The translations under genes and the position numbers were made by a program. A stretch of DNA of 41,226 nt from Candidatus Methanoperedens sp. (GTDB lineage: Archaea; Halobacteriota; Methanosarcinia; Methanosarcinales; Methanoperedenaceae), in the NCBI GenBank assembly GCA_027460465.1, contig JAPZAV010000066.1:1-41226 (forward strand), written 5' to 3'. Below, piece after piece: positions 20,775-26,869 of this stretch (the first letter of the stretch is position 1; every line of letters starts with the position of its first letter). The notes beneath the pieces are model-generated. The model worked only from the letters and a program-made list of their open reading frames with translations. It was not told where the DNA came from and did not search any database.

Positions 20775-21002
20775 ATGGAAATACTGACAATAAGCACAAA
20801 AGGACAGATAGTCATACCTGCTCGAATCAGAAAAAAGTACAGACTGAAAAAAGGTGAAAAGTTGATCATTGAGGATGAGGACGGCTATCTCAAGCTAATC
20901 CCGCACACTGATCTTACTACATTATGTGGTTCATGGCCTGACCTTGATCTTGAAACTATCCGAAAAGAGATAGAAGAGATGCGGAAAGAGGATAGGTTCT
21001 GA
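20775..21002 (+). CDS. vapB: AbrB/MazE-type (SpoVT-AbrB) antitoxin, VapB
   Basis: MEILTISTKGQIVIPARIRKKYRLKKGEKLIIED. Confidence 0.92.
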   Translation: MEILTISTKGQIVIPARIRKKYRLKKGEKLIIEDEDGYLKLIPHTDLTTLCGSWPDLDLETIRKEIEEMRKEDRF

Positions 21003-21421
21003 TGAATACGATTTTGATCGATACAATGCATCTCGTAGAAATGCTAAAGCTAAAAAACGAGTTCCATATCGAGTTAGCAAAAGCAATCAATAAAAAAAAG
21101 CTGGTTGGTGTTGTTTCGGTTGTATCTCTCACTGAATTGATCAAAATTCTGGCCAAGCGTGAAAAAGAAGGTCAGGCATCCAGAACTATCCATCAGCTAA
21201 CATCATCCAATCTAACGTTTGTAGATGTTAATCACAGCATAGCTATCCGTGCTGGTGAGCTGCGTGTAAAATACGATCTCCCTACGGTTGATGCACTAAT
21301 AGCTGCAACAGGCGTAGCTGGAAATGTCAAGCATTTTTTGACTGACGATGATCATTTTGATTCTGTAAAAAATCTGATCAAACCAATAGATTTGAAGGCT
21401 GCTTTAAAGTTGGCAAAATGA
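21002..21421 (+). CDS. vapC: PIN-domain toxin VapC
   Basis: TGATG overlap with vapB; PIN-like acidic residues: ILIDTMHLVEML, VSLTELIKIL, LPTVDALIAATGV, FLTDDDHF. Confidence 0.88.
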   Translation: MNTILIDTMHLVEMLKLKNEFHIELAKAINKKKLVGVVSVVSLTELIKILAKREKEGQASRTIHQLTSSNLTFVDVNHSIAIRAGELRVKYDLPTVDALIAATGVAGNVKHFLTDDDHFDSVKNLIKPIDLKAALKLAK

Positions 21422-21550: not shown

Positions 21551-21568
21551 CTGTGTGTGCATACACAG
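21551..21568. promoter_or_regulatory. Inverted repeat CTGTGT-GTGCAT-ACACAG upstream of orphan VapB
   Basis: 6-bp perfect arms just before ATG at 21575, downstream of AT-rich AAATATATAT. Confidence 0.4.
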
Positions 21569-21574
21569 ACTATT

Positions 21575-21793
21575 ATGGGCACAAAGACAATATCGATAAG
21601 AGATGAAGTATACAGTACTCTTAAAAATTTAAAAAAAGAGAATGAAAGCTTCAGTGATGTTATAGGAAAGCTGGCAAGGAAAAAAGGATCGAACCTGAGT
21701 GATTATTCTGGAGCTTTGAAAGATAGCAAAGTAATGAGCGAAATAGCGGAAGATTATCAAAAAATAAGGGCATCTGCCAGGTCACGAGCATGA
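21575..21793 (+). CDS. VapB-type antitoxin (UPF0330/DUF217-like), no adjacent toxin
   Basis: MGTKTISIRDEVYSTLKNLKKENESFSDVIGKLARKKGSNLSDYSGAL. Confidence 0.82.
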   Translation: MGTKTISIRDEVYSTLKNLKKENESFSDVIGKLARKKGSNLSDYSGALKDSKVMSEIAEDYQKIRASARSRA

Positions 21794-22696: not shown

Positions 22697-23224
22697 TCAG
22701 ATCCCTTTCAACTTGAATTCCCACAGACTTCTACCTTTTATTTCTTTATGTATCAGGTGTTCTATCTCATGAGCGATATCGTACGCTGTTGAACCTTCAA
22801 ATACAAGCTCTGTATCCTTCAGATCTTCCACTTTTATCTCCTTCTCAAGAGGGTGAACTGTCGCCTTTATTATTCGATCACTTATGACTCTCACTTTATA
22901 GGGGCGCTTTACAAGCAGTCTCATCTCCTCGCTCCCGCACTTCTCAAGCCTGAATACATCTCCCTCCTGGCTTTCAAGGACAGGATTCACAAACAGGTAT
23001 ATCTCTTCAAGCGAGTATCCAAGTTTCTTCTTATCATCATAGACAGTGGTCTTGTCCATCACTGCCACTGTGTTTATGTTCTCTGCCGAGTAACTCCAGT
23101 CGCCTCCATCTCTGAGCGATAATAGAAGCGGGATAAAAGCATCTGCAGGTATATCAAATCTTGAGATCAGCTTTAATTCTGCGCTCGTGAATTCTATTGC
23201 CTTCTTAAGATCCTCCATTTTCAT
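22697..23224 (-). CDS. Divergent peptide deformylase-like protein
   Basis: MKMEDLKKAIEF...; IYLFVNPVLESQEGDVFRLEKCGSEEMRLLVKRPYKVRV aligns with PDF INPE...EGCLS...R.EKVKI; AYDIAHEIEHLIHKEI matches HExxH motif. Starts 8 nt after the pheS stop. Confidence 0.75.
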   Translation of the reverse strand: MKMEDLKKAIEFTSAELKLISRFDIPADAFIPLLLSLRDGGDWSYSAENINTVAVMDKTTVYDDKKKLGYSLEEIYLFVNPVLESQEGDVFRLEKCGSEEMRLLVKRPYKVRVISDRIIKATVHPLEKEIKVEDLKDTELVFEGSTAYDIAHEIEHLIHKEIKGRSLWEFKLKGI

Positions 23225-23232
23225 GAGATAGC

Positions 23233-24723
23233 TCACAGCACAGTGCTCTTCCTCAGCCATTCGATGTCGCTCTGATACAGCTCGCGAAGATCTTTGAGCC
23301 CGAGCCTGAGCATCGCCACCCTGCTCACTCCCAGCCCCCATGCAAGCACCGGATACCTGATCCCGAGCGGCTGTGTGACCTCTTTCCTGAAGATCCCCGC
23401 ACCTCCAAGCTCAACCCACTTTCCTCTACTTTCGATATATACCTCAGGCTCCACGCTTGGTTCTGTGTAGGGGAAGTATCCGGGTCTGAACCTCACTTCC
23501 TCAAAACCCATTCTCTGGTAGAACTCCTTCAGGCACCCCAGCAGGTTACTGAAACTCACGCCTTTATCCATCACCACGCCCTCAAGCTGCTCGAACTCTG
23601 GCGTGTGCGTGGGATCAATAGCTTCGCGCCTGTATGCTCTGTCTATGCAGAAAGCCTTCACAGGCGGATCCGGATGCTGTGCAAGGTATTTGATCGTGAT
23701 CGCCGTGGTATGGGTCCTCAGCACCTGCTTTCGTGCAACCTCTTCGCTCCACTTCCCGCCCCAGCCTGAGGATATGCCCCCTCCTTTTTCATGCATCTCT
23801 TTCACCTGCCTGAGATATTCTTCCGGAAGGTCGCATTCTGTATCCAGATGGAAGGTATCCTGCATTTCGCGCGCCGGATGGTCCTGGGGTTGGAATAGCG
23901 CATCGAAGTTCCAGAACGCGCCCTGCACGATATCGCCCTTGATCTCAGTGAAACCCATTTCAAGGAAGATCTGGCGCATCTCGTTGATGAGGCGCTGGTA
24001 TGGATGTATCTTCGCGCCAAAGAGGGGTTTCACAGGAGTATGGATGTTGTATGGGCGGATCCTTGCTGTCTTCCATTCACCTCCTGATATGATTGCGGAA
24101 GTAAGCTGTGCAACTTCTTCTTCTATTGTCAATCCTGCTGCTGCAAGAGCTCTTCCTGACTCTATGATTGCAATTGTGCGGGTTTTTTTCTCGATTTTCT
24201 CAATGAGATTCCTTTTTATCAGGTTCCCGATGATCTCAGCATCAGTGTTGCCGGGAACTTTCTTTATATCGAGTTCTACTGTCAGCGGCTTTTCTTTCAA
24301 TTTTGCAAGCAACTTCTCATCATCCCCTGTCTCAGATTTTCCAGAAGGGATTATCATGTCCCCTTCTATCCTTGCCCAGTTCTTCCTGCGAAGCCATCCC
24401 AGAGCAATTCCCACCATCTGCGGAGGGAATTTCTTTTTCAGATCAGAGAGCGAAACAGGAGACGTGATTGAGCTGATGACCTGGCGCTCCGGAAGTCCCA
24501 CCTCTGCATACTGCTCCCCTTCTTTTGTGAGCGTGTATACCGAAGCGAGAGACTCCCTTATCTCGCAGAGACCTTTTTCAGCGAGAAGAAATGCAGACTG
24601 CATCGCTGCCTCGATACTGAGAGCCGGGGATACAAGCTCATCAGGGGAGAACCTGTCGTGTCTTGACAGTGCCTGTAAAACTCGCTTTTCGTTGTTCGTG
24701 AGGTTGAAATTCATTACAGCCAT
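23233..24723 (-). CDS. pheS: Phenylalanine-tRNA ligase subunit alpha
   Basis: [85 protein letters not shown]. Confidence 0.98.
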
Positions 24724-24754: not shown

Positions 24755-25930
24755 TTAAATTATTTGCGATCTTCCTGTGTACTGGCTGAACTCCCATGGC
24801 TGTCTCTTGATATCCCCGAGCACCTTCCCTGCAGCATCCTCAGGCAGTGCAAGGATGAGCGCTCCGATGTGTTTGCAGAAACGTCGCTCCTTCGCCGCTC
24901 TTTTCCAGTCAGGACAGTCGTGCAGTATGAACTTTTTTTCAAGATCAATATATACTGAATAACCACTGACATCAGCCACGATCCTGTCCCCTCCTGATTC
25001 AATGATCTCTATATCTTTTATCTCTTTTGCCTTTTCAAGTCTTGCAGCATCGATATGAACAGAGAGCAGGGCAGATATATCCTCTTTTTCCTGCTCTTCG
25101 AAATCACTGAGGGTCCTTGTGCCAGTTTTGATCCCTGCTCTTATCTTCCTGTACTCTGAAATATGCTTTCCTGCCTCTTTCTGCACAGGTACAGCTATCC
25201 CGAGCATTTCCAGCACTTCCAGGCAGTTCTCTGGAGCATAGCCGTGGTAGTGATTATTGAAATACCCGTAAACCTCTGAACTCTGGGACATCTGACTGAG
25301 CCTCGGAACCCACTCTTCTAACTCTTCCCTGGAATAGCGGTAGTTGTACCACATCTTCCTGCCCCTTCCGTGCCAGCGCACATAGGCAAGATCCGAGGTC
25401 AGCCTGATCATGGGGGGAAGCAGAGGCTCATCTACGGTAACAGCCGCAACATCGTACTCTGAAAGCAGGCTGTGCACCTCATCAACAAGCCATGTTTTGT
25501 TCCTGTACTCAATGGCAAAACGCAGATCGTCGGGTAATATTTTCAGGAACGCCTCCACTTTATCTTTCCTGAATTTCATTCCAGGCGGAAGCTGGATCAG
25601 AATGCATGCAAGCTTTCCCGCATCCTGAAGCGGTTTCATGAGTTCGCAGAACCTGTTCAGATCATCCTTCACACCTTTTGACGGATCAAGGCGCTTTTCA
25701 TGGGTTATGAGACGGTTAAGTTTAACAGAGAATTTGAAATCCGAAGGAGTGTGCTTTGCCCACCCGAACACAATGCCCTGTGATGGATAGCTGTAGAACG
25801 TGGAATTGATCTCTGCTGTATTGAAGATCCTTGAATATGCATGAAGTCTTGACTCATCTTCACTTCTGTAGAATACATCTGCCCAGTCCCGGTAATCCCA
25901 GCCCGAGCATCCAAGTCGGATCATACCCAT
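24755..25930 (-). CDS. DUF72 domain protein with C-terminal SWIM-like zinc-finger extension
   Basis: [28 protein letters not shown]-terminal [26 protein letters not shown]. Confidence 0.85.
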
Positions 25931-25963
25931 AAAGGATAATTATATCCTTTCTGATTAATACGT

Positions 25964-26869
25964 ATGTCCATGCACATAGGTACAGGCGGCTGGGATTACT
26001 TCCAGGTCGAGGGGCTTGATTCACTTACTGCTTATTCAAAAGCATTTGACTTTGTGGAGGTCAATTCAACCTTCTACTCACCTCCTTCCCCTGACATGGT
26101 CAGGTCGTGGAGGCGGCGGGTGAGGGAGAATTTTGAGTTCTCGGTACGCTGCCACAGAGACCTGACGCATAAGTACCTGCTTTTTCCTTGCAGGGAAAGT
26201 TATGAAATACTGAATTACTCGCTCCGGATCTGTGATGTACTGAGATCCGGGATACTGCATATCCAGACCCCGCCGTATTTCAAAATCCGGGAAAATATAA
26301 AAGATATCAGGGATCTTTTATCATCCTTCGATTTTGGCAGTACAAAGCTGGCATGGGAGATACGCGGGAATTCCCATGAAGCCACAGGATTGATGCAGGA
26401 TTTCGGGATAATACACTGCACTGATATTTCAAAGCAATTTCCAGCTGTGGATTCTGACATCCTCTACTCGCGCCTTTTCGGGCATGGAAAACACAACCTC
26501 TATCAGTTCGATGATGCCGAGCTGCTGCAGATCAATGACAGGATCAGAGGGATGAATAAAGGTGAAGCATACCTCACCTTCCACGGAGCAAGGATGTACA
26601 AAGATGCTGCAAGGCTCAGGGTATTCCACAGGAACGGGACCTTCCCCGGCATCACAAAAGCCACAGGACTGGCATCGCTCAAGATCATACTTGAAGAAGA
26701 TGCAAGATTCCCTGCAGCAAAGAACGAACTCATGGAGAAGCAGGGCTGGAAAGTGTTTGATCTTTCAGAGAATGAACATGTTCATGCGAGAACAATGCTT
26801 GAGAAGCTGCCTGACAGGGAATATACAGGGGTTGAAGAAGTGATTGAGGCTTTAGGATCACTTCAGTAA
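25964..26869 (+). CDS. DUF72 domain protein
   Basis: IGTGGWDYFQ, VEVNSTFYSPPSPDMVRSW, LTFHGARMYKD. Confidence 0.9.
   Translation: MSMHIGTGGWDYFQVEGLDSLTAYSKAFDFVEVNSTFYSPPSPDMVRSWRRRVRENFEFSVRCHRDLTHKYLLFPCRESYEILNYSLRICDVLRSGILHIQTPPYFKIRENIKDIRDLLSSFDFGSTKLAWEIRGNSHEATGLMQDFGIIHCTDISKQFPAVDSDILYSRLFGHGKHNLYQFDDAELLQINDRIRGMNKGEAYLTFHGARMYKDAARLRVFHRNGTFPGITKATGLASLKIILEEDARFPAAKNELMEKQGWKVFDLSENEHVHARTMLEKLPDREYTGVEEVIEALGSLQ

Follow-up and report, generated by a model that had tools for sequence, protein, structure and literature searches.

In bacteria, peptide deformylase removes the formyl group from newly made proteins, and deformylases are regarded as partners of formyl-methionine initiation. 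The window analysed here (the whole stretch of 41,226 nucleotides, from Candidatus Methanoperedens) encodes, directly behind pheS, a small protein with deformylase-like motifs, raising the question of whether an archaeal protein of this kind is a genuine relative of deformylase and, if so, what it could act on. The original prediction, made from the window alone, proposed a repurposed amidase, with aminoacyl- or peptidyl-tRNA processing as one possible role.

The gene and its locus

The features considered in this analysis are as follows.

22697..23224, minus strand: deformylase-like metalloprotein gene, 175 amino acids plus stop (start codon at 23224, stop at 22697-22699)
23233..24723, minus strand: pheS, phenylalanyl-tRNA synthetase alpha subunit (PF01409, 2e-92; a neighbour that is not regarded as functionally linked)
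23084..23107, minus strand: GGDWSYSA, residues 40-47, the conserved GGxWS(Y) at the position of deformylase motif I (GxGxAAxQ) in the 45-sequence alignment
22937..22951, minus strand: RLEKC, residues 92-96, equivalent of motif II, with C96 a predicted metal ligand and E94 corresponding to the Glu of EGC (invariant in 45/45; aligned to E. coli EEGCLS)
22757..22771, minus strand: HEIEH, residues 152-156, motif III, with H152 and H156 predicted metal ligands and E153 the predicted catalytic base (H, E, E and H invariant in 45/45; aligned to E. coli HEMDH)

The open reading frame is intact, with 175 codons on translation, and is present in one copy in the host genome. Its translation contains EKCGSEEMRLLVKRPYKVRV and AYDIAHEIEHLIHKEI, the two segments quoted in the original prediction, and the gap of 8 nt between the end of pheS (23233) and the start codon of the gene (23224) is as had been described. 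Elsewhere in the window, two divergently oriented DUF72 genes occupy 24755-26869, the minus-strand one being extended at its C-terminus (CPDW...FCKH) by what looks, on inspection of the sequence, like a possible SWIM-type zinc finger. Genes for a MazE-like antitoxin, a PIN-domain toxin and a lone VapB-type antitoxin lie in that order at 20775-21421 and 21557-21793.

Conserved residues and altered motifs

Conservation was read from an alignment of 45 sequences (A2) with identities down to 41%. C96, H152, E153 and H156, which make up the predicted metal site, are invariant in all 45, as are E94, R102 and R107; among the other invariant residues are E16, P32, S36, G40, G41, W43, S44, Y62, E73, P81, R92, L93, K95, V105, G144, E155 and G164. 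The three metal ligands of deformylase are matched by C96, H152 and H156 and its catalytic Glu by E153, and in the register of the profile alignment E94 lies opposite the Glu of EGC, and R102 and R107 coincide with two Arg of E. coli Def. The Cys-His-His-Glu site anticipated from the window sequence is conserved in every member of the alignment.

The three deformylase motifs are retained to different degrees. Motif III (HExxH), which supplies two His ligands and the catalytic Glu, is present throughout (H152, E153 and H156 in 45/45), and motif II (EGCLS) keeps an invariant Glu and Cys, with the Gly replaced by an invariant Lys, the Leu replaced by Gly and the Ser not conserved. Motif I (GxGxAAxQ) is absent, as had been noted, and its place is taken by GGxWS(Y), in which GG, W and S are invariant and Y is found in 44 of the 45 sequences. 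In deformylases the Gln of motif I contacts the formyl group, and the motif orients formyl-Met peptides; no conserved counterpart of this Gln was found in the 45-sequence alignment.

Relationship to the peptide deformylase superfamily

The window protein scores 18.5 bits against the Pfam deformylase model PF01327, below the cut-off of 22.8, and the maximum among eight family members scored singly is 22.1 bits, so that the case for homology rests on alignment. NCBIfam gave no match to the protein, and sequence searches of PDB chains reached deformylases at E values of 0.025-1.1 only. Profile comparison of A2 with deformylases by hhalign (target profile, E. coli Def plus 61 deformylases from viral contigs) gave a probability of 96.2% (P 2.2e-9), placing Cys on Cys and HExxH on HExxH. 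The score of 61.4 compares with 13.7 +/- 2.7 for 150 column shuffles (maximum 23.9) and with 20.0 for a reversed-alignment control, and together with the invariance of C96, H152, E153 and H156 it indicates that the motif resemblance on which the original prediction was built is not due to chance. A comparison with eight near-identical archaeal deformylases gave 1.1% and still paired the same motifs; the low figure is put down to how little diversity this target contains (Neff 1.5). The motif I region was left unaligned to deformylases in both hhalign modes.

An AlphaFold2 model built on A2 (pLDDT 93.5, pTM 0.87, all five models above 92) contains helices at 3-21 and 27-39, a strand at 43-47 at the motif I position, further strands and the HExxH helix at 145-158. 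In a Foldseek search of the PDB with this model the top 22 matches are all deformylases, with probabilities of 0.98-1.00, followed by unrelated proteins at no more than 0.54; the similarity itself is moderate (TM 0.30-0.41, rmsd 6.6-11.4 A, best E value 2e-3). This model supersedes an earlier one from a 15-sequence alignment (pLDDT 76.7), which retrieved no deformylase and nothing useful from the PDB. Comparison with viral structures produced a single confident match, to an unnamed entry.

On profile and model evidence, the window protein is best described as a divergent relative within the peptide deformylase superfamily, and not as a close structural copy. It shares with E. coli Def and PF01327 the succession of secondary-structure elements that begins with the helix preceding motif I and ends with the HExxH helix, the E-x-C and HExxH metal site and the Arg at positions 97 and 102 (E. 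coli numbering), whereas it differs from them in having GGxWS(Y) for motif I, EKCG for EGCLS, longer hairpins and no C-terminal helix past the HExxH helix. Also unlike the bacterial deformylases, it falls under the Pfam cut-off and is encoded by a host without formyltransferase.

Comparison with type 3 deformylases

Type 3 deformylases, present in Archaea, protists and some bacteria, resemble the window family by their partly archaeal occurrence and by their substitutions in motifs I and II. Several motif-substituted members, some archaeal ones included, are described as weakly active or inactive (PMC5591237, PMC12690207), while motif-substituted deformylases of T. brucei are active (PMC12690207). 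PF01327-positive archaeal relatives with altered motif II were also found here (loci L250-L252, L253 and L254-L261). These retain motif I, for example as ALAAPQ or GLSAPQ, and score 108-144 bits, unlike the window family, which scores below 23 bits on PF01327 and has lost motif I. Judged by sequence, the window family is clearly different from the PF01327-positive archaeal proteins found here. Since motif I and the family score are both lacking, the protein is not classed as a peptide deformylase. Archaeal type 3 deformylases have already been described, and the window family is taken to be a further variant of this kind; literature searches found no description of the family itself.

The PF05618 label

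All 45 family members match PF05618 ('Zn_protease'), with E values down to 2e-19 in the G148 orthologue, and the window protein does so at 27.8 bits against a cut-off of 27. It is barely credible, all the same, that the protein is an ATP-dependent zinc protease or RimB retropepsin-like aspartic protease, as this label would have it. The matches always start at profile position 25, past the DTG of true members (DTGA, positions 22-26), and the family has no DTG motif, carrying HExxH and other catalytic residues instead; hhalign comparison with genuine RimB-type proteins from related genomes gave a probability of 0.5%, leaving the HMM score label as the only likeness. The 'zinc protease' label was rejected on these grounds. 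The PF05618 scores drop with distance from one sequence (70, 50, 40, 28 and 23 bits), suggesting that a member of the family sits in the PF05618 seed. PF05618 therefore looks mis-built, its seed seemingly including a member of the deformylase-like family, and archaeal genes of this family may be mislabelled as ATP-dependent zinc proteases.

Genomic neighbourhood

Neighbouring genes were clustered for the window and 51 other loci, covering about 6-8 kb on each side where the contig allows, with a few genomes counted in two collections. A pheS homologue is carried within the examined stretch by the window only (0/51 of the other loci), and no neighbour gene recurs across host groups or genera. 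More local arrangements are seen in five Methanoperedens loci (L020, L221, L225, L229 and L230), which share upstream uracil-DNA-glycosylase-like and Nudix-like genes, and in Methanolobus loci, which share a downstream TPR-like gene, all named by reading the sequences. The adjacency to pheS, for which the original prediction had asked whether synteny extends to the family, is, on the loci examined, a coincidence of the host genome, and inference of function from operons was rejected because there are no conserved neighbours. An amidase for aminoacyl-, N-acyl-aminoacyl- or peptidyl-tRNA, coupled to phenylalanyl-tRNA synthetase, had been suggested by the short gap to pheS in the window; with pheS missing near the gene in every other locus and about half of Methanoperedens genomes lacking the gene, this role is highly improbable.

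Distribution, selection and decay

Orthologues are present in 18 of the 34 genomes of the host family, about half of Methanoperedens lacking the gene, in 73 of 186 sampled genomes of the order and in 65 of 394 sampled genomes of the phylum, in both of which many genera are without it. Besides Methanoperedens they occur in Methanosarcinaceae and Methanomicrobiales, and a scan of a named collection places Methanolobus and Methanoculleus among the carriers; the nearest relatives in that collection, at 67-80% identity, are Methanoperedens or archaeal MAGs, and the named M. acetivorans genome also matches PF01327 and PF05618. Identity between orthologues is 67-79% inside the genus and 41-57% in other families. 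In the sampled genomes the family is confined to methane-metabolising lineages, the scan reaching beyond the phylum having used strict patterns that also missed Methanosarcina, and no relatives were found in the viral contigs or plasmids searched. In a protein tree with midpoint rooting only, Methanosarcinaceae stand apart from a group formed by Methanoperedens and Methanomicrobiales.

The gene is under strong purifying selection, with a median pairwise dN/dS of 0.086 among Methanoperedens pairs, for which dS is near saturation. Decayed copies also occur, with internal deletions in G020 and G030 and stops in G123, G125 and G149, indicating that the gene is dispensable over evolutionary time; taken with the patchy presence, they point to an accessory role.

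Formylation in the host archaea

The formyltransferase domain Formyl_trans_C (PF02911) is absent from 33 of the 34 host-family genomes, the exception being a weaker match in G029 (1.7e-8), and from six carriers of the deformylase-like gene in other families (G148, G177, G270, G251, G289 and G479). According to a 2026 review, the formyltransferase is missing from archaea, and canonical deformylase is generally missing too (PMC13234167). Canonical PF01327 proteins were found in 12 of 394 sampled genomes of the phylum, one of which, G289, carries both a PF01327 protein and a member of the window family.

In genus g90 all eight genomes found encode an intact-motif deformylase beside a formyltransferase gene, which is the bacterial arrangement, and no match to the window family was found for this genus in the phylum sample. 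Within the sample, the bacterial enzyme serves the formyltransferase-bearing lineage, and formyltransferase is missing from the lineages that have the window family. The absence of the formylating enzyme from the host makes a role other than nascent-chain deformylation likely. The idea of a repurposed amidase accordingly keeps its general part, in view of the superfamily, the Cys-His-His-Glu site and the host without formylating enzyme, and loses its link to tRNA processing.

Several features of these canonical and altered proteins are recorded here in their own right. The g90 genomes are 1.6-2.0 Mb in size, two of them single-contig. The def-fmt cluster lies at L268:2927-4446 (G471:C1), with matching pairs in G305, G327, G368, G373, G412, G454 and G475; in G471 there is a 4-nt overlap between the gene for the canonical deformylase (GVGLAAPQ, EEGCLS, HEYDHLDG) and that for a two-domain Met-tRNA formyltransferase. 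The g90 initiator tRNA retains the A1-U72 pair, as in related archaea without formyltransferase. To judge from its genes, formyl-Met initiation in this archaeal genus is possible, and a literature search on the subject found nothing. A second PF01327 protein of g90 (L254-L261) has motif II as EGSPC, with Ser at the position of the metal Cys and a Cys two residues on. The proteins of L250-L252 (genus g62, DSCYS) and L253 (G289, ESCMC), from genomes in which formyltransferase was not found, are PF01327-positive with altered motif II and resemble published descriptions of type 3 deformylases.

Candidate functions

The explanation we favour, held with slightly more confidence than doubt, is that the protein is a divergent hydrolase of the peptide deformylase superfamily, an active Cys-His-His metal amidohydrolase whose probable role, outside translation, is the removal of formyl or comparable small acyl groups. 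It starts from computed properties, namely superfamily, fold class, an invariant predicted metal site, selection, the lack of operon logic and the lack of formyltransferase; metal binding, catalysis and the kind of substrate are inferred. The protein would act as a small stand-alone hydrolase in which C96, H152 and H156 would bind a single divalent metal, for which Fe2+ would suit anaerobic hosts, and E153 would activate a water on this metal for attack on an amide with formyl or another small N-acyl group. Since the hosts lack initiator Met-tRNA formylation and the protein has GGxWS(Y) in place of motif I, nascent proteins are most likely not its substrate; small acyl groups, of which formyl is the simplest, would most likely be removed from peptides, amino acids or metabolites that are damaged or scavenged. 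Against this explanation stand the moderate fold similarity, the changes in motif I and most of motif II, and the several type 3 deformylases with motif substitutions that are weak or inactive (PMC5591237, PMC12690207).

The same type 3 enzymes, together with the loss of motif I and the reduction of motif II to E-x-C, are what could be expected if the protein were a weak or dead relative of deformylase, its metal site kept for stability or binding and its role that of a binding or regulatory factor. This is possible, though doubtful, since the HExxH Glu and the three ligands are invariant over three host groups, which is stricter than expected of a dead enzyme, and since the motif-substituted enzymes of T. 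brucei are active (PMC12690207). A genuine peptide deformylase working on nascent chains that start with formyl-Met would agree with the superfamily membership and the metal site, but is very unlikely in hosts without Met-tRNA formyltransferase, when the formyltransferase-bearing genus of the same phylum has a canonical PF01327 def-fmt cluster and no match to the window family, the motif I Gln is without counterpart and the gene is dispensable.

A more specific form of the favoured, non-translational hydrolase would be a lineage-specific deformylase that restores proteins or metabolites N-formylated by accident through formyl-methanofuran and formyl-tetrahydromethanopterin metabolism. A formyl source in this chemistry would, at a guess, fit the methane-metabolising hosts, and it is the hosts only that suggest the link to one-carbon chemistry. 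A loose parallel is offered by the def mutations that arose in formaldehyde-tolerant evolved strains of Methylorubrum extorquens (PMC8153426). The gene is, against this, missing from many sampled genera and from about half of Methanoperedens species, and a role in formyl damage is considered unlikely.

The window family represents a metal-site relative of deformylase that is conserved in archaea without formyl-Met initiation and masked by a Pfam label, and as such a testable case of a repurposed deformylase scaffold. The presence of orthologues in genetically tractable Methanosarcina opens its function to bench testing.
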